Source of the DNA: a bacterium
GTDB taxonomy: Bacteria; B130-G9
Direction of reading: 5' to 3'
Assembly: GCA_021160245.1 (NCBI GenBank)
Contig: JAGHCW010000132.1
Span: forward strand, 1 to 14,832
Length of the DNA stretch: 14,832 nt
Shown here: in pieces, positions 1,986 to 14,832 of the stretch
Layout of the letters: each line of letters opens with the position of its first letter
How positions within the stretch are numbered: the stretch's first letter is position 1
Position numbers and translations under genes: made by a program
Notes under the pieces: model-generated
What the model was told of the DNA's origin: nothing
What the model saw: the letters and a program-made list of their open reading frames with translations, nothing else
The model's database searches: none

Positions 1986-2915
1986 ATGCGAATACAAAAA
2001 GCCGTCTTCCCCGCAGCGGGATTGGGGACGAGGTTCTTGCCCGCCACGAAGGCACAACCGAAGGTCATGCTGCCACTTGTGGATAAGCCGATAATCCAAT
2101 ATGTGGTTGAGGAGGCGCGGGATTCGGGCATTGAGCAGATAATTTTCGTGACTGGTCGAGGTCAACGTGCGATTGAGGACCATTTCGACACCTCGTTTGA
2201 GCTGGAGCGCGTCCTGGAGAGCAAGATAAAGGAGGCCTCCGATAAGAAAAAGAAGGCCGAGCTGCAGCACATGTTGGACGAGGCGCGAGAGATATCGAAT
2301 ATGTTCAACGTGGCGTATATCAGGCAGAAGGAGGCGAGAGGTCTGGGGCACGCCATTCTTGCTGCGCGCGATGTTATAGGCAACGAGCCGTTCGCGGTGC
2401 TGCTTGGCGACGACGTGATCTACAGCAAGACACCTTGCCTGAAACAGATGATCGACTCATATTCGCGCTACAAATGCCCCGTAATCGCGCTTGAGCGCAT
2501 CCCCAAGGAGAGCATTGGCCGTTTCGGTGTGATTGCGGGCGACTGTGTGGATGACAGGCTTTACAAGCTCTCTGGAATGGTCGAGAAGCCAAAGCCGGAG
2601 GACGCACCGTCTGATTTGGCCATCATCGGCAGATACATCCTGACGCCGGAGATATTCGAGATACTCGCGAACCTTCCGCCCGGCAGAAGCGATGAGATAC
2701 AGCTGACTGACGGTCTCGTCGAGCTCCTTGGCCGACAGGTGATTTACGGCTATGAGTTTGAAGGCAGACGTTACGACGCCGGCGACAAATTGGGCTTTCT
2801 GATTGCAACTATGGAATATGGACTCCGCAATCCTGAACTCAGTGACGAGTTCATTGACTACTTGGGCCAGATGGACATCAAGAGCATCTGTGGCAAGGAA
2901 TTGCCCAAGAAATAA
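1986..2915 (+). CDS. galU: UTP-glucose-1-phosphate uridylyltransferase
   Basis: A 309-residue GalU/GtaB-type enzyme that makes UDP-glucose from UTP and glucose 1-phosphate in the cytosol. UDP-glucose feeds exopolysaccharide, lipopolysaccharide and other glycan synthesis. Near-diagnostic motifs are the nucleotide-binding loop FPAAGLGTRFLPATKAQPK (8-26), LVDKPIIQYVVEEA (31-44), the metal-binding GDD (141-143), EIQLTDG (237-243) and YDAGDKLG (263-270). The usual PKEMLP after the loop reads PKVMLP here, a small departure from the common form. The Shine-Dalgarno GGAGAGG begins inside the stop region of the M42 gene ten bases upstream, so the two are surely co-transcribed. Full length and intact. 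Confidence 0.95.
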   Translation: MRIQKAVFPAAGLGTRFLPATKAQPKVMLPLVDKPIIQYVVEEARDSGIEQIIFVTGRGQRAIEDHFDTSFELERVLESKIKEASDKKKKAELQHMLDEAREISNMFNVAYIRQKEARGLGHAILAARDVIGNEPFAVLLGDDVIYSKTPCLKQMIDSYSRYKCPVIALERIPKESIGRFGVIAGDCVDDRLYKLSGMVEKPKPEDAPSDLAIIGRYILTPEIFEILANLPPGRSDEIQLTDGLVELLGRQVIYGYEFEGRRYDAGDKLGFLIATMEYGLRNPELSDEFIDYLGQMDIKSICGKELPKK

Positions 2916-2931
2916 GAAAGGTGGAAATCAA

Positions 2932-4707
2932 GTGAATGTCGCGAGAATGTGCGCCGCTAGTGCGAAGGCCTTTCCAGAAAAGAAGGCAATTGTCCACAGG
3001 GACGTTACACTCGATTTCGCCTCGTTGGATAAGCTGGTTACTCGCTGTGCGAGCGGATTCCACAAGATGGGCATTGGACCAGGGGCTAAAGTAGTTTTGC
3101 TTCTGGAGAAAACTCCAGAGCTCGTTATCTCATTCGTGGCGTGCGCAAGGGTTGGGGCAATGGTGGTTCCAATCAACTACCAGCTTCAGCCCGCAACGGT
3201 TGAGGAGATTATCCTGAACCATGGCGTTGACGCAATTGTGGCGTCTTGCAGGTTTGAGAGGCTCCTCTCGAAGATGCCTAAGAACCACAAGGCGATGAGC
3301 AACTTAGTTCTCTGCCGGGCGGACGAAGAACACCGGGCCGAGGACTGGCTCACTTGGGAGAAATTCCTAGACGATGCGCCGGACGACTTCACGCCGGCTG
3401 ATGTTGACGACGACGCGCCTTTCTATCTGAACTTCACTTCCGGAACGACGGGCGCGCCTCGTGCGGCGATCACAACTCACACGAATCTATTCTGGAACAC
3501 ATTGGCCTCCGTGGAGACGCTTGGGCTCCGCCACAGCGACGTTCATCTCTGCATGTTTCCCGCATACCTGCATCCCCACGAGATATTCTATCGTGGCATC
3601 TATCTCGGCGGAACCTCGGTCGTTGACAACAGCCTCTTCCCAAAATCCGTTGCACGAGCGATAAGTGACAACGGTGTGACTTGCGTCATGGGCGCTGCAA
3701 CTCTCTACGAGCGGCTCCTGCCATTCGCATCGACGAAGGGGCTCCATTACGAGACGCTCAGGATTGCAGAGAGCGGCGGCATGATTACCCGCGAGACACT
3801 CATCAAGCAGTTCGAGGCGGCGTTCGGCATTCCCATCACCCCTGTATGGGGAAGCACAGAGACGGCCGGCATCGCGGTCGCAACTCCGGCGGAGGAGGCG
3901 AGGAGAGGCGGCTCGATAGGCAAGACCGCGCTTCACTATGAGATCAAGGTTGTGCGTGAGGATGGCTCTGCCGCTGCCGAAATGGAGATCGGCGAGATGC
4001 TCATCTCCGGCAAGGGCGTTGTCTCGGAGTATCACCATATTGCTGACGGCCAGAAGTCGCCGTTTGAGAACGGTTGGTTCAGGACGGGAGACCTCATCAA
4101 GCAAGATGAGGACGGCTTCATCTATTACGTTGACCGCAAGGACTCGATGATGAAGGTGGCCGGCATGAAGGTCTTTCCTGCTACCATCGAGCGAGTCTTG
4201 AAAGAACACCCAGATATCGCTGATGTATGCGTTATACCCGCCTCCGACAAACTGCGCGGCCAGATGCCGATGGCCGTCGTCGTCACAAGGCCCGGCGCCT
4301 CGTTAGCAGCGGACGATCTCCGCGGCTATTGCGCGTCCCGGCTGGCGCCTTATGAGGTACCGAAGCTCTTTGAGTTTAGGGAGGCCATGCCACGAACGGC
4401 CGGGGGAAAGGTGCTTCGCGCGGAGTTGCTTGAGCTCTATCGGAAGGACTCGAGCCACGCTGACATCGCCGACCTAAGGGCCCAGATCGACAGGATTGAC
4501 GTCCAAATCGTGAAGCTCTTGAATGAGCGCGCAAGGTCACTCCTGAATATCCATGACCTGATTGAGGCGCGCGGTGAGAGATCGTTCTCCCCCATGCGAG
4601 ATGAGGAAGTGATCCAAAACGTCCTCGGCTACAATGCCGGCCCCGCCCACGACGGCACAATCGAGGAGATATTCCGCAGCATCCTCGCCGCGCTGAAGAA
4701 GATGTAG
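2932..4707 (+). CDS. Acyl/aryl-CoA ligase fused to a chorismate-mutase-like domain
   Basis: A 591-residue two-domain protein. Residues 1 to about 505 are an ANL-superfamily adenylate-forming ligase, which activates a carboxylate with ATP and usually transfers it to CoA. The P-loop FTSGTTGAPRAA (168-179) has Arg177 where Lys is usual. WGSTE (306-310), RTGD (384-387), the hinge DRKDSMMKVAGMKVFP and the catalytic lysine Lys493 in PRTAGGKVLR are all present. Residues about 511-591 resemble an AroQ (type II) chorismate mutase: LRAQIDRIDVQIVKLLNERA, then MRDEEVIQNV and EEIFRSIL. Aligned to E. coli AroQ, Arg11, Arg28 and Arg51 are kept (516, 533, 556). Lys39 is Ile544, Asp48 is Ser553, Ser84 is a Leu, and Gln88 lies past the end. 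Mutase activity is therefore doubtful. The GTG at 2932 is chosen because AGGTGG lies seven bases upstream. It sits 16 bases after galU. The substrate is unknown. Confidence 0.85.
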   Translation: MNVARMCAASAKAFPEKKAIVHRDVTLDFASLDKLVTRCASGFHKMGIGPGAKVVLLLEKTPELVISFVACARVGAMVVPINYQLQPATVEEIILNHGVDAIVASCRFERLLSKMPKNHKAMSNLVLCRADEEHRAEDWLTWEKFLDDAPDDFTPADVDDDAPFYLNFTSGTTGAPRAAITTHTNLFWNTLASVETLGLRHSDVHLCMFPAYLHPHEIFYRGIYLGGTSVVDNSLFPKSVARAISDNGVTCVMGAATLYERLLPFASTKGLHYETLRIAESGGMITRETLIKQFEAAFGIPITPVWGSTETAGIAVATPAEEARRGGSIGKTALHYEIKVVREDGSAAAEMEIGEMLISGKGVVSEYHHIADGQKSPFENGWFRTGDLIKQDEDGFIYYVDRKDSMMKVAGMKVFPATIERVLKEHPDIADVCVIPASDKLRGQMPMAVVVTRPGASLAADDLRGYCASRLAPYEVPKLFEFREAMPRTAGGKVLRAELLELYRKDSSHADIADLRAQIDRIDVQIVKLLNERARSLLNIHDLIEARGERSFSPMRDEEVIQNVLGYNAGPAHDGTIEEIFRSILAALKKM

Positions 4708-4743: not shown

Positions 4744-4780
4744 GAGTCGGGACAGAATAACGAGCGAAGAGGAGTAGCCG

Positions 4781-6175
4781 ATGTTTACACATCTGCGCAT
4801 AAAGAACTTCAAGGCGTGGCGCGACACCGGCGATATTCGCCTGGCGCCGCTGACGGTCTTTTTTGGCACTAATAGCTCCGGCAAGAGCAGCATCAGTCAG
4901 TTCTTGTTGATGTTGAAGCAAACGGCTCAATCTGCGGACCGGAAGAGAGTATTGATACCTTCGGACAAAGATATGCCGATTAACCTCGGGGGCTACCGTG
5001 ACATGGTGCATGGCCATGCCGATGATGAACGGATCGCCTTCAGACTGGGATGGGAGCTTCCCACAAGGATGGTGCTCAAAGATGTGCGGTCTGACGAGAA
5101 GTTTTCAGGAGACTCAATCAGATTTAGTGCCGAAATCGGTCTGCCAGCAGGCAAGCGGGAGGATGTTGTCATCCACAGTATGCAATATGAACTCGGCAAT
5201 TTGTCTGAGAAGGGCCTTGAACTCGGCATGAAGTTGAAGACTTCGAAAAGCCCCGGAAAGGACCAATATGAGCTGGTGCATTCAGGCTACAATCCGGTTC
5301 GAAAGGAAGGTAGAGTTTGGCCGTTGCCATCTCCCATTCACTTCTACGGGTTCCCCGCGGAAGTAATGGCCTATTATCAAAATGCAGGATTCGTGGGGGA
5401 CCTGGCGTTTGCGCTCGAGCAGCGTTTGCGGCTCATGTCCTACCTAGGGCCCCTTAGAGATTATCCACGCCGGCAATACCCATATATGGGCGAGACACCG
5501 GAGGATGTAGGCAGGCAAGGAGAGCAATCCATTTCAGCGATTCTGGCGGCGCGCGAGCGATTCATCAGGCCAGGCAAGTATAAATCCCGAAAGTCCTTTC
5601 AGGTTCTCATTGCCAGCTGGCTGGAGAACATGGGTCTAATTGGGAGCTTTGATGTCAAACCAATTGTGCCTGACGGACGTCTGTATGAAGTCGTCGTCAA
5701 GACGCCAATGACCGAAGCACACGTGAACCTTACTGACGTCGGTTTCGGGGTCTCTCAAGTATTGCCCGTTCTGGTTCAGTGCTTCTATGCGCCTTCGGAT
5801 TCGGTAATCATAATGGAGCAGCCTGAGCTTCATCTTCATCCGTCTGTTCAGGCTTCGCTTGCGGACCTGTTCATTGAGACTATTCAGGCCCGGGAAAATG
5901 GGAAAGACCGCAACATCCAGCTTCTGGTCGAAAGCCACTCTGAACATTTCCTCATCCGCCTACAGCGTCGAATTGCCGAGGGAAACATCTCTCGTGAAAA
6001 GGTAGCGATTTACTTCTGCAAACCTACTCGTTTAGGAGCGGAGATGAAGACCTTGGAGTTGGATGTTCTCGGCAATATCACCAACTGGCCGAAGGACTTC
6101 TTCGGCGACCGGTTTACGGATATGGCCGAAATGACGAAGGCTGGGGCTGCACGGCGAATGGCGGGGAATGGATGA
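4781..6175 (+). CDS. AAA/ABC-type ATPase, DUF3696 family
   Basis: A 464-residue ATPase of the SMC/OLD-like ABC branch with a DUF3696-type C-terminus. It opens with MFTHLRIKNFKAW, typical of this group. Walker A is GTNSSGKS (29-36), a signature-like block is LTDVGFGVSQVLPV (318-331), Walker B is SVIIMEQPELHLHP (341-354), and the H-loop/switch is LLVESHSEHFLIRLQRRI (381-398). The closing WPKDFFGDRF segment (436-445) fits DUF3696. There is no Toprim or HNH nuclease domain, so it probably acts through its partners. AAGAGGAG lies six bases before the ATG. Its stop overlaps the start of the PIN-like gene by four bases (ATGA). Related ATPases serve as sensors or activators in bacterial defence systems. 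That role here is inference. Confidence 0.88.
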   Translation: MFTHLRIKNFKAWRDTGDIRLAPLTVFFGTNSSGKSSISQFLLMLKQTAQSADRKRVLIPSDKDMPINLGGYRDMVHGHADDERIAFRLGWELPTRMVLKDVRSDEKFSGDSIRFSAEIGLPAGKREDVVIHSMQYELGNLSEKGLELGMKLKTSKSPGKDQYELVHSGYNPVRKEGRVWPLPSPIHFYGFPAEVMAYYQNAGFVGDLAFALEQRLRLMSYLGPLRDYPRRQYPYMGETPEDVGRQGEQSISAILAARERFIRPGKYKSRKSFQVLIASWLENMGLIGSFDVKPIVPDGRLYEVVVKTPMTEAHVNLTDVGFGVSQVLPVLVQCFYAPSDSVIIMEQPELHLHPSVQASLADLFIETIQARENGKDRNIQLLVESHSEHFLIRLQRRIAEGNISREKVAIYFCKPTRLGAEMKTLELDVLGNITNWPKDFFGDRFTDMAEMTKAGAARRMAGNG

Positions 6176-6717
6176 TCTCCTCATTTTCGCTGTGTGCGGT
6201 TGATACGAATGTCCCAATCACTGCAAATGGAATGTCGGATGCAACCGACGCGTGTCTGATAGAGTGTGTAAAAGCCTTACAGAGAATCAAAGAAAGGGGT
6301 CGGATTCTCTTGGACTATAGCCGTCTGATCTTAGGCGAGTACGAGCATAAGCTCTCCCCTTCCGGTCAGCCCGGGCTTGGTGATGAGTTCTTGCTCTGGA
6401 TATACCAGAACCAAGGGACAGGTCGCTGCGTTTTCGTGACAATCACGCCGAAGTCAGGCTGTTCCTACAACGGTATTGCATACGACTTCGTGGAGTTCCC
6501 CAACCACCCAGGATTACACGACTTCGACCTCTCTGACCGGAAGTTCGTCGCCGTTGCGCTCGCTCATCCTGAGCGTCCACCGATTCTAAATGCAACGGAC
6601 ACAGACTGGTTGATAGCTGAGGAGCCGCTGGCAAGACACGGAATCAAGGTCGAGTTCCTTTGCCCGGAAATCAAGGATGTGCTTGAAGGCAAACTCAAAA
6701 AAACCGCTAATGGCTGA
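6172..6717 (+). CDS. PIN-like domain putative nuclease
   Basis: A 181-residue protein with a PIN-like arrangement of acidic residues: Asp11 in AVDTNVPITANG, Glu56 in LILGEYEHKL, Asp119/Asp122 in FDLSDRKFVAVAL, and Asp143/Asp145 in NATDTDWLI. PIN domains are metal-dependent nucleases, mostly ribonucleases, and include the VapC toxins. The spacing, with a longer middle region than VapC, suggests a PIN-like subgroup rather than a classical VapC, and no antitoxin-sized partner is present. Its ATG overlaps the ATPase stop by four bases, and its end overlaps the RNA ligase start by eight, so all three are probably translationally coupled. I infer that it is the cleaving effector controlled by the ATPase. 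The fold call rests on motif reading and needs a profile search; the target is unknown. Confidence 0.7.
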   Translation: MISSFSLCAVDTNVPITANGMSDATDACLIECVKALQRIKERGRILLDYSRLILGEYEHKLSPSGQPGLGDEFLLWIYQNQGTGRCVFVTITPKSGCSYNGIAYDFVEFPNHPGLHDFDLSDRKFVAVALAHPERPPILNATDTDWLIAEEPLARHGIKVEFLCPEIKDVLEGKLKKTANG

Positions 6718-7405
6718 TTTCTTTAAGTTTCCTCATACTCCGCATTTGGTCTGGCTGGGCGCCGAGTCGCCCCGCGAGGACAAAGTTCTTTCGCCTCGGG
6801 ATGTTGAGTCGTTTCTTGAGGGCGAGGTTCTGGTTGAGGAGAAGGTGGACGGGGCCAACATTGGGCTGTCTATTGGTCCGGATGGCGACGTTCGGGTCCA
6901 GAACCGGGGGAGCTATCTTCGTGGCAAGGCGCATCGTCAGTTCGGCCCGCTATGGCCGTGGATCGATGCACGCCGGGCTGCGTTGACCGAGGCGCTCGAG
7001 CCCGGACTCATCCTATTTGGCGAATGGTGCTACGCCCAGCATTCAATCCACTACGATCAGCTGCCTGACTGGTTTCTTGCCTTCGATGTTTATGATACGA
7101 AATCTCGCGAGTTCTGGAGCACGGCCCGGAGAAACCACTTTGTGGATTCGCTTAAGGTGCGCCGAGTCCCTGCGGTGACCGAAGGCACATTCACATTATC
7201 AGAACTCGTTGGACTGTTGGGTGAATCCCGCCTAACCAGAGGCCCCATGGAAGGAATCTATTTACGGAGGGAAGACGGTGATCGTCTGCTCGCCCGGGCG
7301 AAGATCGTCCGTGCTGAGTTTGTACAGAACATCGGCGAGCATTGGTCGAAGAGCGCATTCCAGAGGAATGCCCTCCGCAAAGCCACCGTCGCGGCTGCGG
7401 TTTGA
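6710..7405 (+). CDS. RNA ligase family nucleotidyltransferase
   Basis: A 231-residue protein of the covalent nucleotidyltransferase (RNA ligase, Rnl2-like) superfamily, which joins RNA ends through an enzyme-AMP intermediate. Motif I is EKVDGANIGLS with the predicted AMP-accepting Lys45. Motif Ia is likely VQNRGSYL (Arg66), motif III is LFGEWCYA (Glu105), motif IIIa is AFDVYD (125-130), motif IV is MEGIYLR (Glu181), and motif V is RAKIVRAEF (Lys198). It is a minimal ligase with little C-terminal extension. I chose the ATG at 6710, which overlaps the preceding stop, over an upstream ATG at 6677, because the conserved sequence begins at FFKFPHTPHLVWLG. No strong Shine-Dalgarno is seen, which fits coupling to the PIN gene. 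It may repair RNA cut by the PIN protein or by an invader. That is inference, and DNA nick sealing is not excluded. Confidence 0.85.
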   Translation: MADFFKFPHTPHLVWLGAESPREDKVLSPRDVESFLEGEVLVEEKVDGANIGLSIGPDGDVRVQNRGSYLRGKAHRQFGPLWPWIDARRAALTEALEPGLILFGEWCYAQHSIHYDQLPDWFLAFDVYDTKSREFWSTARRNHFVDSLKVRRVPAVTEGTFTLSELVGLLGESRLTRGPMEGIYLRREDGDRLLARAKIVRAEFVQNIGEHWSKSAFQRNALRKATVAAAV

Positions 7406-10196: not shown

Positions 10197-13100
10197 CTAC
10201 TCGAGCACCCATTCAACCTGTGCGATTGAGCTTATCAGGTTGAAACTATCCGCATCGGAGACCGCCACAAACCACTTGTATTGGCCTGGGCCGAATGCGC
10301 GAAGGTTGTTGTTGAAGAGGATCATCGGGCAGACATCCGCATGTCTCGGCAGCACATAGTCGTCAAAGAACGGCGCCAATTCCGGCGCGAGGTCCTGACC
10401 AAACGCCAGTGTGCCATCCGGAGCCTGAAGAGCCACATAGAGATCAACGGTCTTTGTAAGGCCGTCATTTCTAAGTCTGGCGCTTAGTACCTGCATCGCC
10501 CCATGATCATAAATCGGATACGTGTTGTTGAGCGAGAGTTCCAGCTCTGGCCTGAGGTCAATTGTCGTAACCAGAGGAACCGATGCCAAGAGGTTCTCGC
10601 CCTCCAAATGCCTCGTCAGAACCGCGCGCCACATATATTCGCCCGGCATAATGGACGAGGGAACCTGAATGTCCGCGAGCGGTATATTGTGAACCGAAAG
10701 GCCGGCTGGCATGTCGAAATTGGTCAAGTATGGACTCGGTTCGCCGGTGAAGCTCGGGAAGAAGACCACATCACCCGTCGGAAGGATGATGCTAATGTAA
10801 AGGTCAAGCCCTCGCACGGTCTCTCCCTTGTTGCGACCAGAGATCGAGACTCTCATGTTATCACCCGAATAGAACATGTCAGCGTTGCACGCAAGCCCAA
10901 CTGAGAGCAGTGAAGGCTCAACACCGATACCAGTCAAAGCGACCTCAATTTCCGGCCTGTCAGGATCGTTTGATTCTATCGTCAGCGTCGCAGAAGTAAC
11001 TCCGATCTCGGTAGGTCCGAAGACCACAGGAGCGAAAGAAGTCAGCCCTGGATTAATCGTAAATGGTGTCGTCGAACTGCAATCAAACGCGACTCCGTCA
11101 ACATCCAACGATACAACAGTCAGCGGCGCCTCGCCCTGGTTGGTGATGAAGAGCTGCCAGAACTTGCTGGCTCCGATCTGAACTTCACCAAAGTTATAGG
11201 ATTCGGCTGAGAGCGCTATCTCAGGATAGAGCATTCTGTACTGCGTCGTCGTGTCGGCCGAGGCCGGCGGCTGCTCAATGTTCCCCGCAGCATCTGTCGC
11301 TATCGAGTAGAACTCGTAGTATCCCTCACCGTTCGCTGCTTCGAACTGGAATAGGCCAGTCTGACCCCCGATGGGCTCGCCTACTTCCGCCCAATCAGTC
11401 CAATCGCCACCCAGTGTCGCCGAATAGCGATACCAAAGCGAGATTGACGCAATCGGACTGAGAATGTCCGTCGCATTTGCGCCAACAGTGAAGATCGCTC
11501 CGTTGACCTCGTCAGGCGATACTGCCGTGGAGTATGGAGACATGGTGTCATAGGCGATCGATGTGTCAGGCGCGGCAGGTATGGTCTCCCTATTCCCAAA
11601 CTTGTCCTCCGCAACCGTATAGAAGTCGTAGTCGCCGTCGCCCTCTATCGGCACGAATTCGAACACACCGACCGTAGATTCTGTCGCCAGAAGCCCAGTG
11701 TCCTTATACGCTCCGCCACCTACTCGATACCAAAGCCGAACCGATGCGATACCCACACCTCGGTCGGAGGCCTCATAAGGCAGCGGAATCGGGGATTGGT
11801 TTGAATACGCGACATCAGATGAAACTGATGACTTCGGCGCAACGTTGTCGAATGTTGAAATGGCGGAAACAGTAGCGCCAGTTGTCGGCTCCGGCTCGCT
11901 GTTGCCGCAGTAATCGGTCGCAACCGTCCAGAACGAATACGTTCCAACGTCATCCGGTGGCAGGAAGTCAATTGTCCCTGATTCGGTGTGCGCAATGTGT
12001 CCGGACTTAGTCCAGTCGCGATCCCCAAAGCGATACCATAAGCAGACATTCTCAACTCCGCTCTTCGCATCCCATGCGGTGAAGAAGACCGGTATGGTAT
12101 CACCCGTAATCATCTCGGGTGAGCTAACGGTCGAGATCGGAACGGTAATATCATAATAAGTCGTGGTGTCAGGCGATGTCGGATCAAGCTCCGTCCAACC
12201 CGCATTGTCCGTTGAGAGCGTGTAAAACTCGTATTCGCCCTCACCGTCCGGCGCGTTGAACTCGAAGACGCCCCAAGAATCAAAGGAGATCATCTCAGCG
12301 CTCTTGTACTCGCCGCCATCGAAGCGATAGAACAGCGTAACCTGCGATACACCCGAAGCATCGTCACGGGCCTCATATCTGATATTCAGCGGCAATTCAG
12401 TTGCATAAGGCGCAGACCAGCAAGTCGAAGCCGGCCTCTCTCCATCATATATGCAGCTGCCATCCGGCACATCTGGCACATACTCCTCATTCCCGGCGGT
12501 ATCAATCGCATGAGAATAGAAGTCATAGCGTCCAAAACCGTCGGCCAGTACGAACGTGAATGTCCCGCTCGTGGCATTGACAGATAAACCTGTGTTTGCC
12601 CAGTCGCCACGCCCATATCGATACCACAACCAGACCGAATCAACGCCAGAGAAGTTGTCCGCCGCTAGGAAGTCAATCGCGATGGTTGCGTTCGTCGAGG
12701 ACTCCGGCACAGTGGCTATCGAAACTGGTCGCGCCATGTCAAACACAGTCGAGGCGTCCTCTATCGCGGGCACAGCTTCGGTGTTACCAGCAAGGTCTCT
12801 ACCTATTGTATAGAACCTGTAGGTTCCGCCAGCTATCTCCGGCTCATATATGAAGCTGCCGGAATTAACGCCATGCTTCTCGTCCACCTTCTGCCACGCC
12901 CAGATATCAAACTGGACCCAGAGCTCAACGACTGCAAGTCCCGTGCCAACATCATTCCCCTCAAAATGAACGTCAATTGGGGAGGATGTAGTCCACGTCG
13001 GAGCGGATGCCGTCGTGTTCGGAGCTACCGTATCGACGAATGAGATACTGCACGGAGCAGTCTCTGCGCTGGGCTCGTCCTGAACATTGCCTGCAGCGTC

Positions 13101-14832
13101 CGTGGCCACAGTGTAAAATGCATATTGGCCATCGCCTTCGGGTGGCAAGAAGGAGAACACACCGAAGTTTTCACCCGGACCTGATACATTGATGCTCTCT
13201 TCCCATCCCAGCCAGTCCGTCCATCCTAGCTCTTTATACTTGTACCAAAGCCTAACTGATGCGAGGTCCGAGCCCGTCCCGTCAGCCGCGAATTGGATGT
13301 TCACAGGCTGCTGGTTATACGTCGCGTCGCTTGTGCATCCGGAAGTCGGGAGCACGACATCATAAGGGACACTCGTGGGCAACTTGGCCGTCCAATCTTC
13401 CTCATTGCCGGCCATGTCGATTCCAACCGTATAGAAATCGTATGTGCCCGGGCCCTCGGTCGGAATGAAATTGAACCATCCCGCTTCCGCATTATGGGAA
13501 AGCCCTGTGCTCATCCAAACGCTGGCGTTGAACCTGTAATAGAGAACTACCGTATCGATCGGCGCCCCCGTCAGAACCGACGGCTCAACACATTCGAACG
13601 ACAGTGAAATCGGCAGCGAATTCACACCCGTCGGTCCCGAGAGAATTGTCAGCGGAGCCGTCGAATCAAAGAGCGTTCCAGAATCGCCATTCACAGGCGC
13701 CGGAACAGCCTCAATAAAGCCCGCATTGTCCGTCGCGACCGTGTAGAAATAGTAAACACCCTCACCAGAAATCGGTATGTAGTCGAATCTGCCAGAAGCC
13801 TCCGAACTCGTCAGCCCAGTAGCGCCCCATGCCCCGGCCTCTCCGAACTTGACATAAAGGTCAACGCTCGCGATGCCGGATGAGTTATCAGTTGCAACGA
13901 AATAGACGGGGAATGGACCCAAGTTCGTGTAGGTCTCGGAAGATGCAACCGATTCTGGCGCTGATATGTCATAAGTGGTCTTGCTATCGATCGAATCGCC
14001 CTGACCAGGAGCCGGCTCCAGATTGCCGGCGTTGTCCTTCGCTATGGTATAGAAGGAATATGCGCCCTCGAGGCCTCCTGGGGGATCGAAGGAGATTGAG
14101 CCGACAGCGGCCGATCCGTAACCGCCCGTGTATTCTGCAAACATGCCCGAATCGAGCTTGAACCAAAGCGCTACCTGGGCAAGACCGGATGGGCCTGTAT
14201 CCCCAGCCGTGTAGTCAACCTGTATCGGCAGCGCTGTCACAATTGCCTCTGATGTACAGGCCGATGTCGGGAGACTCCTATCGTAGATCGTGTTGACGAC
14301 AGTCGATGGAGGCGCGATCTCTACGTTGCCCGCGATGTCGGTCGTCCGCGTGTAGAAGCCATAGGTTCCCTCAACGTCATCCGGCTCAAACATGAACTCG
14401 CCGGATGGTCCGATAACTGGCTCTCCGAATTGCTCAAAAGCTCCGCCATCGAGATTGTAATAAAGGGCAGTGCTCAAGTCGCCTGAGAGATTGTCATCCG
14501 CTGAGAATGTAATGCCTATCGGCAGCGATGTAGCGTACTCCGGAGCATCAACCGTCGAGGTCGGCGCCGTAACGTCAAACACCACTGAGGCGTCCGCATA
14601 GCCCGGCCTGGCCTCGCGATTGTCGCAGTTATCGACAGAAACCGTATAGAAATGGTAGAAGCCCTCGCCGAATGGGAGGTCCACCAATATCGTTCCCGAG
14701 GTGCCAATATAAGCGCCGTAAAGTTCATAAGGACCGTTGTCAACGCTGATTAAGAGCTCCGTGCTCGCAACGCCAGCTGTGGCATCAGTCGCAATCCATT
14801 GGACTTCGCCAATCGGCTCACGAACCAGCTCT
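10197..14832 (-). CDS. Giant Ig-like repeat surface protein, 5' end beyond window
   Basis: An open frame runs from the right edge to a TAG at 10197-10199, giving 1,544 visible residues with no stop. A TTG at 14687 is not the real start, because the frame and the repeat pattern continue to 14832. From the N-terminal side the visible part holds 12 repeats of about 98-106 residues, then one choice-of-anchor D/ASPM-SPD-2-Hydin-like domain (11228-10917), then two copies of a C-terminal domain (10916-10557 and 10553-10200). Each repeat ends in a G-x-Y-x-FYT-x(3)-D-x-AGN-type motif. Such beta-sandwich arrays are usual in adhesins and other secreted or surface proteins. No signal peptide can be seen because the start is missing, and no sortase, RTX or membrane anchor was found. 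The protein heads an operon with a TolC-family gene. Surface role is inference. Confidence 0.85.
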   Translation of the reverse strand, partial: ELVREPIGEVQWIATDATAGVASTELLISVDNGPYELYGAYIGTSGTILVDLPFGEGFYHFYTVSVDNCDNREARPGYADASVVFDVTAPTSTVDAPEYATSLPIGITFSADDNLSGDLSTALYYNLDGGAFEQFGEPVIGPSGEFMFEPDDVEGTYGFYTRTTDIAGNVEIAPPSTVVNTIYDRSLPTSACTSEAIVTALPIQVDYTAGDTGPSGLAQVALWFKLDSGMFAEYTGGYGSAAVGSISFDPPGGLEGAYSFYTIAKDNAGNLEPAPGQGDSIDSKTTYDISAPESVASSETYTNLGPFPVYFVATDNSSGIASVDLYVKFGEAGAWGATGLTSSEASGRFDYIPISGEGVYYFYTVATDNAGFIEAVPAPVNGDSGTLFDSTAPLTILSGPTGVNSLPISLSFECVEPSVLTGAPIDTVVLYYRFNASVWMSTGLSHNAEAGWFNFIPTEGPGTYDFYTVGIDMAGNEEDWTAKLPTSVPYDVVLPTSGCTSDATYNQQPVNIQFAADGTGSDLASVRLWYKYKELGWTDWLGWEESINVSGPGENFGVFSFLPPEGDGQYAFYTVATDAAGNVQDEPSAETAPCSISFVDTVAPNTTASAPTWTTSSPIDVHFEGNDVGTGLAVVELWVQFDIWAWQKVDEKHGVNSGSFIYEPEIAGGTYRFYTIGRDLAGNTEAVPAIEDASTVFDMARPVSIATVPESSTNATIAIDFLAADNFSGVDSVWLWYRYGRGDWANTGLSVNATSGTFTFVLADGFGRYDFYSHAIDTAGNEEYVPDVPDGSCIYDGERPASTCWSAPYATELPLNIRYEARDDASGVSQVTLFYRFDGGEYKSAEMISFDSWGVFEFNAPDGEGEYEFYTLSTDNAGWTELDPTSPDTTTYYDITVPISTVSSPEMITGDTIPVFFTAWDAKSGVENVCLWYRFGDRDWTKSGHIAHTESGTIDFLPPDDVGTYSFWTVATDYCGNSEPEPTTGATVSAISTFDNVAPKSSVSSDVAYSNQSPIPLPYEASDRGVGIASVRLWYRVGGGAYKDTGLLATESTVGVFEFVPIEGDGDYDFYTVAEDKFGNRETIPAAPDTSIAYDTMSPYSTAVSPDEVNGAIFTVGANATDILSPIASISLWYRYSATLGGDWTDWAEVGEPIGGQTGLFQFEAANGEGYYEFYSIATDAAGNIEQPPASADTTTQYRMLYPEIALSAESYNFGEVQIGASKFWQLFITNQGEAPLTVVSLDVDGVAFDCSSTTPFTINPGLTSFAPVVFGPTEIGVTSATLTIESNDPDRPEIEVALTGIGVEPSLLSVGLACNADMFYSGDNMRVSISGRNKGETVRGLDLYISIILPTGDVVFFPSFTGEPSPYLTNFDMPAGLSVHNIPLADIQVPSSIMPGEYMWRAVLTRHLEGENLLASVPLVTTIDLRPELELSLNNTYPIYDHGAMQVLSARLRNDGLTKTVDLYVALQAPDGTLAFGQDLAPELAPFFDDYVLPRHADVCPMILFNNNLRAFGPGQYKWFVAVSDADSFNLISSIAQVEWVLE
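10200..10916 (-). repeat. Duplicated C-terminal domain of the giant protein
   Basis: Two successive protein segments (10916-10557 and 10553-10200) share the same order of features: a polar RN-x-G turn, a DLY strand, P-x-G-x(2)-x-F, a proline-rich loop, PG-x-Y-x-W near the end, and an NL-x(2)-S close. I read this as a tandem duplication of a domain of about 115 residues. I do not recognise a named family. Confidence 0.6.
10917..11228 (-). other. HYDIN/choice-of-anchor D-like domain within the giant protein
   Basis: This stretch encodes about 104 residues with the typical order YNFGEVQIG, WQLFITNQGEAPLTV, FTINPG, VVFGPTEIG, TLTIESNDPDRPEIEVALTG. This is the pattern of ASPM-SPD-2-Hydin or choice-of-anchor D domains, which are Ig-like folds common in secreted bacterial proteins. 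Confidence 0.75.
11231..14832 (-). repeat. Twelve tandem Ig-like protein repeats
   Basis: The aromatic FYT/FYS/FWT signature that marks the end of each repeat is encoded near 14651, 14357, 14054, 13748, 13436, 13118, 12815, 12521, 12227, 11933, 11624 and 11312, so the period is 294-318 bases. Each unit starts with a D-x(2)-xP-x-S-type linker, continues with a VxFxAxDxxSGxxSVxLWYRYG-like core (up to 20 residues quoted as a pattern), and ends in the FYT block. DNA copies are clearly diverged, so this is an old array rather than a recent expansion. The first repeat is cut by the window edge and more may lie beyond it. Confidence 0.85.

Follow-up and report, generated by a model that had tools for sequence, protein, structure and literature searches.

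The three overlapping genes delimited in Table 1 are proposed to form an anti-phage guard, in which an ATPase of the HEC-03 family would gate a PIN-domain RNase and an RNA ligase would act as a repair-type antidote; judged on the whole of the analysis, this reading was given a probability of about 0.5. The cassette looks like an immune switch with its own repair enzyme because the trio recurs in about ten phyla and is often located in known operons directed against viruses. The window, i.e. the whole stretch of DNA analysed, is a complete contig of 14,832 bases from a source genome of 3.43 Mb in 244 contigs, and its phylum was represented by four genomes in the collection searched.

Table 1. 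Coordinates of the cassette genes, their conserved motifs and the region of DNA similarity in the window.
Feature	Position	Strand	Description
ATPase	4781..6175	+	464 aa, HEC-03B family, SMC/OLD-like AAA_15 with DUF3696 tail
Walker A motif GTNSSGKS, ATPase	4865..4888	+	G29, N31, G34, K35, S36 invariant in alignment A3
Walker B / D-loop region, ATPase (SVIIMEQPELHLH)	5801..5839	+	E346, Q347, P348, E349, H351 invariant in alignment A3
PIN-domain nuclease	6172..6717	+	181 aa, HEC-03A family, VapC-like fold
PIN metal-site motif I D11-T-N13	6202..6210	+	D11 and N13 identical in 88/88 homologues
PIN acidic residue E56	6337..6339	+	88/88 homologues
PIN acidic residue D122	6535..6537	+	88/88 homologues
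PIN acidic residue D143	6598..6600	+	88/88 homologues
Minimal RNA ligase	6710..7405	+	231 aa, PF09414, nucleotidyltransferase core without C-terminal domain
Ligase motif I K45-V-D47 (KxDG)	6842..6850	+	K45, D47, G48 identical in 37/37 ligases
DNA similarity to nearest trio-bearing relative (L005)	4777..7388	+	blastn, 77.8%; delimits the cassette

Open reading frames were found exactly where the preliminary description had placed the three genes, on the same strand and with the same overlaps. The ATPase matched the PADLOC model of HEC-03B with an E-value of 2.5e-127 over residues 1-461 of 464. The NsnB model (the Menshen ATPase) ranked second with 3.8e-57, and the values of the AriA (PARIS) and GajA models were 1.1e-25 and 7.4e-10, respectively, the latter far below that of HEC-03B. 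The Pfam matches were AAA_15 (3.1e-23) and DUF3696 (2e-07), together with AAA_23 and SMC_N; the literature search returned nothing on DUF3696 in combination with PIN. The N-terminus of a second DUF3696/HEC-03B-like ATPase is located at the end of contig C228 of the window's own genome (L167, 2142-8167), after an hsdR-hsdM-hsdS type I RM operon.

The PIN protein had no Pfam match and its profile detected nothing meaningful among the PDB sequences. It was matched by the PADLOC HEC-03A model (5.5e-30, residues 9-166 of 181), and an AlphaFold2 model built from alignment A6 reached a pLDDT of 93. With a structural aligner, the best matches of this model were VapC toxins (VapC21: Z 9.9, 123 aligned residues, rmsd 2.9), and the other high-scoring structures were mostly PIN domains too. 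The structures of HARP/PRORP ranked below VapC with Z values of 6.1-6.5, and Foldseek gave weak matches with HARP/PRORP in the top row. D11, N13, E56, D122 and D143 are invariant in the 88 homologues, as is typical of the PIN metal site, and the earlier assignment of the second gene to the PIN domain is confirmed by these residues and by the structural comparison.

The third gene, previously described as a nucleotidyltransferase-type RNA ligase, was supported as such by RNA_ligase PF09414 (1.5e-33; 116.8 bits against a cut-off of 27), by its KxDG motif and by its predicted fold. K45 is the predicted AMP-accepting lysine, as read from the motif. In Foldseek the ligase model matched the Naegleria RNA ligase (1.7e-08) and archaeal Rnl3, and it also matched T4 Rnl2 over the core domain of that enzyme; the ligase profile matched the archaeal Rnl3 structure 2vug with 3.4e-06. 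The TIGR01209 model remained below threshold (E 0.19; 10.5 bits, cut-off 136.9), and none of the PADLOC models matched the ligase. The last 24 residues of the model were of low confidence. At about 230 aa the protein is devoid of the accessory domains present in the Naegleria ligase, Rnl3 and T4 Rnl2, and its own activity is uncertain for this reason.

The ATPase and PIN genes share the 4-base overlap ATGA, and the PIN and ligase genes overlap by 8 bases. The mechanical open reading frame of the ligase begins at 6677; the start at 6710 was adopted because it is favoured by the homologues. Among the relatives, overlaps are present in 65/86 loci at the ATPase-PIN junction, 51 of them 4 bases long, and in 30/35 loci at the PIN-ligase junction, 21 of them 4 bases long. 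Since the overlaps recur at the same junctions, they are not due to chance. The dN/dS values between the window and its nearest trio-bearing relative were 0.15 for the ATPase, 0.20 for the PIN and 0.16 for the ligase, i.e. all three genes are under purifying selection. The signal of a promoter and terminator scan was at the level of shuffled sequence.

A genome scan resulted in 362 relatives, the best 80 of which (those closest to the window) were analysed. Among these best 80 of 362, the ATPase adjoins the PIN in 78 loci and the ligase is directly downstream in 30, while 50 contain the pair without the ligase, which indicates that the ligase is not essential to the ATPase-PIN pair. The PIN tree had 88 rows. 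One supported side consists of 45 loci that lack the ligase, from Chloroflexota, Cyanobacteriota, Poribacteria, Hymenobacter and other groups, and the opposite side comprises all of the 37 rows with the ligase together with six rows without it. Five label changes suffice to account for the presence of the ligase compared with about 28 for shuffled labels, gain and loss being indistinguishable on this unrooted tree. The ligase-bearing rows belong to about ten phyla, the window's own included: Thermodesulfobacteriota, Myxococcota, Nitrospirota, Planctomycetota, Synergistota, Spirochaetota, Chlorobiota, Pseudomonadota and, on a plasmid, Actinomycetota. The only recurrent third gene of the ligase-less loci encodes a 206-aa protein in Poribacteria; as a common third gene of these loci it was rejected, since it looks like a lineage-specific neighbour.

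A search that started from the ligase covered 297, 398 and 195 genomes of three phyla (890 in total) and gave 27 strong matches (E <= 1e-54), of which five came from genomes that the first scan had already yielded. The order ATPase-PIN-ligase was present at 25 of the 27, and the adjacency of homologous trios, which the preliminary description had made a check of its proposal, was thereby borne out. The other two were a Burkholderiales PIN-ligase pair and a truncated locus. Some of the PINs next to strong ligase matches were strongly diverged (E about 1e-10 to 1e-23), and the 12 weaker ligase matches (E >= 4e-42) had no adjoining PIN. Four ligases were detected in the 297 genomes and 11 in the 195 genomes; in the phylum with 297 genomes the PIN was present in 8 and the ligase in 4, each time next to a PIN. 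In the 38 PIN genomes, no ligase was found elsewhere at E 1e-6 when the local one was missing. The PIN and ligase distances were correlated with a coefficient of 0.91. Within the genomes searched, ligases of this type pair near-exclusively with PINs of this type. The trio is a genuine unit of inheritance: the earlier view that the three genes belong together holds, their order and overlap being conserved and the genes being co-inherited in the relatives. Two Burkholderiales genomes (L077, 9998-11225; L089, 2465-3683) possess the PIN and the ligase with no such ATPase genome-wide, and the ATPase is therefore not always required.

With the PIN as a tblastn query, 12 plasmids were found, and the ligase follows in all except three Acinetobacter plasmids. 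The trio-bearing plasmids span four genera, and the carriers include conjugative and mobilizable plasmids. On an Aeromonas caviae plasmid (L009, 10520-12615) the ligase is split by an IS256-type element and the ATPase and PIN are intact. No PIN relatives were detected in phage genomes, and none of three stretches in viral contigs was confirmed; a phage origin of the cassette is not supported by these searches.

Outside 4777-7388, the nearest trio-bearing relative, which belongs to the same family and a different genus, has no DNA similarity to the window. The genes flanking the cassette occur in relatives on other contigs or in other places, and no clean, empty site of insertion could be identified among the relatives. 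The GC content of the cassette (0.535) is almost the same as that of its flanks. Its neighbours are metabolic genes with no visible defence island. Two further features of the window are an AMP-binding ligase with a C-terminal type II chorismate mutase domain, an unusual fusion (2896-4707), and a repetitive, secreted-looking protein of 1496 aa on the - strand (10197-14687), encoded downstream of the gene of an outer-membrane efflux protein.

Some of the relatives occupy another setting. In up to eleven loci the trio is located within a BREX operon, with PglX on one side and BrxHI/PglZ on the other, and in three (L044, L071, L092) it follows the hsdM-hsdS-hsdR genes of type I RM; BREX was typed by PADLOC in L052 and L080, and the BREX and RM assignments beyond L052, L080 and L044 were made by homology to these three. 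Altogether, 14/37 ligase loci are situated within or next to BREX or type I RM operons vs at most 6/51 ligase-less ones (Fisher p 0.005, a guide only because the rows are related). The expectation that homologues would reside in defence islands agrees with the BREX, type I RM and Hma settings of the relatives and does not extend to the window copy. In L052 (3933-5759) a Schlafen AlbA_2 protein with a Fic-like C-terminus lies between BrxC and PglX of the BREX operon, and in L046 (3580-5919) and L070 (5871-8246) a TOTE-type archaeo-eukaryotic primase-helicase is located directly downstream of the ligase.

The preliminary description had stated that no named system is known to consist of these parts. 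This stands for the trio, as far as it could be checked, and fails for the ATPase-PIN pair because PADLOC (PADLOC-DB 2.0.0) already lists HEC-03B and HEC-03A, of which the two proteins of the cassette are full-length members. HEC denotes Hma-embedded candidate (PMC12988326, PMC12111858), and Hma embedding is the way in which the HEC-03 family was found rather than a component of it. There are no Hma genes in the window, and relatives are found in BREX and type I RM; an HEC-03 pair in an Hma-like operon is present on an Acinetobacter soli plasmid (L011, 8636-11290), where the ATPase is annotated as two ORFs and an HNH gene occupies the third place, in which the ligase would stand. A shared HNH partner was rejected, since the HNH genes beside the Acinetobacter pair and a Nitrospirales trio are not alike. 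What distinguishes the cassette from HEC-03 is the dedicated RNA ligase directly after the pair, which is not covered by the PADLOC models. None of the models and papers searched, which did not include the HEC preprint or a 2016 RNA-repair survey, has a dedicated ligase in third place. At the level of sequence families, two of the three parts are an already catalogued defence candidate and the ligase is the added part.

PARIS, composed of an ATPase and a two-metal RNase that leaves tRNA ends with 3'-OH and 5'-phosphate (PMC12409363), resembles the cassette in the pairing of an ATPase with a small nuclease and in the chemistry, which for the cassette PIN is predicted; its ATPase may be of a related type. 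It differs in that the cassette has a PIN instead of the AriB Toprim, an additional ligase, and an ATPase far nearer to HEC-03B than to AriA. PrrC, the anticodon nuclease of EcoprrI, is encoded in a type I RM operon (type IC), and its activation follows the blocking of restriction by T4 Stp (PMC12707154); the damage is repaired by T4 with Pnk and Rnl1 (PMC12409363). An association of the ATPase and nuclease genes with type I RM is seen in the relatives L044, L071 and L092, although not in the window, and an RNA ligase takes part in the conflict, as one would in the case of the cassette. However, PrrC is a single polypeptide with HEPN whereas the cassette encodes two separate proteins with a PIN nuclease, and the ligase and kinase are carried by phage T4 whereas the cassette encodes the ligase together with the nuclease. 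In HARP-Rnl3 (PMC12153264) the genes of a PIN nuclease and an ATP-dependent RNA ligase also co-occur, often as neighbours, but they belong to other families (PF09745 PIN, TIGR01209/PF18330 ligase), are mostly divergent or distant, and are not accompanied by an ATPase. Pnkp1-Rnl-Hen1 (PMC4411300) similarly ties a dedicated RNA ligase to immunity against ribotoxins; it comprises end-healing and methyltransferase subunits but lacks a nuclease, whereas the cassette carries the cutter itself. Septu and Gabija differ by their HNH PtuB and UvrD-like GajB partners, neither of which is present in the cassette. VapBC shares the toxin fold of the PIN and differs by the adjacent VapB antitoxin.

From these comparisons we infer the trigger, the RNA target, the toxicity and the repair. 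The ATPase would hold the PIN nuclease inactive, as in PrrC and PARIS, and would sense phage interference, e.g. with the BREX or type I RM restriction of the host. The freed PIN would then cut host RNA, probably tRNA, and translation would stop. The two-metal chemistry of PIN nucleases should leave ligatable ends. Metal-dependent cleavage by the cassette PIN would yield 3'-OH and 5'-phosphate ends, so the ligase alone may be enough for repair: in an ATP-dependent reaction it would seal them with no need of a kinase, which T4 does require to counter PrrC, and as an antidote it would undo low-level or ended cleavage. The stricter version, a closed immune switch guarding BREX and type I RM that combines a cutter with ligatable ends, a restraining sensor ATPase and a reversing ligase, is tentative, its odds being estimated at somewhat over one in three. 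Several observations speak against the guard: the 50 loci with the pair and no ligase, the six ligase-less loci on the ligase side of the PIN tree, the two Burkholderiales genomes devoid of the ATPase, the missing accessory domains of the ligase and the position of the window copy outside a visible defence island.

Two other explanations are unlikely to a similar degree. The cassette may be an RNA-processing or housekeeping RNA-repair module, like HARP-Rnl3, that is not dedicated to defence. This would suit the metabolic neighbours of the window copy, the one conserved chromosomal setting of the Burkholderiales PIN-ligase pair, the alignment of the PIN model with HARP/PRORP and the match of the ligase profile to archaeal Rnl3; however, VapC structures outrank HARP, and the patchy spread, the plasmids and the BREX and RM loci fit mobile defence better. 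Alternatively, the genes may be a toxin-antitoxin unit that stabilises a plasmid or operon; its antitoxin would be either the ATPase or the ligase, and its benefit would be retention of the linked operon rather than phage defence itself. The VapC-like toxin fold, the carriage by conjugative and mobilizable plasmids and the insertion within other operons are consistent with this, but the only neighbours of the PIN are the overlapping ATPase and ligase, no small VapB-like antitoxin being found beside it, and the ATPase family is rich in phage-sensing defence proteins.

Slightly less probable than either is a ligase that belongs to the weapon and would mis-join, circularise or adenylate the RNA ends cut by the PIN, making the damage permanent. 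In its inheritance the ligase accompanies the PIN but, as in the Burkholderiales, not always the ATPase, and its fold relatives include the circularising archaeal Rnl3 (PMC12153264); against this, ligase-less pairs are common and presumably work, and a ligase as defence effector has no precedent in the literature searched. A DNA-damage defence, in which the PIN would cut DNA and the ligase protect or repair that of the host, is improbable: SMC/OLD-like ATPases, to which the AAA_15, AAA_23 and SMC_N matches point, are often DNA-linked and relatives are embedded in DNA-targeting systems, but the ligase belongs to RNA_ligase PF09414 with RNA ligases as its nearest folds, and the PIN resembles VapC RNases.

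The guard with its own antidote makes predictions about the end chemistry of the PIN, a requirement for K45 of the ligase and anti-BREX or anti-restriction proteins as the trigger. Known RNA-cleaving defences are countered by repair enzymes of the phage, such as T4 Pnk and Rnl1 in the case of PrrC, or by repair operons that the host encodes separately. If the cutter and the sealer indeed act from one cassette as a closed switch, this would show that bacteria can construct abortive infection in a reversible form, and the absence of end-healing enzymes would be explained. The HEC-03 family gains a predicted mechanism and a component that is unmodelled in the PADLOC library. If active, the ligase would be a very small RNA ligase of about 230 aa.
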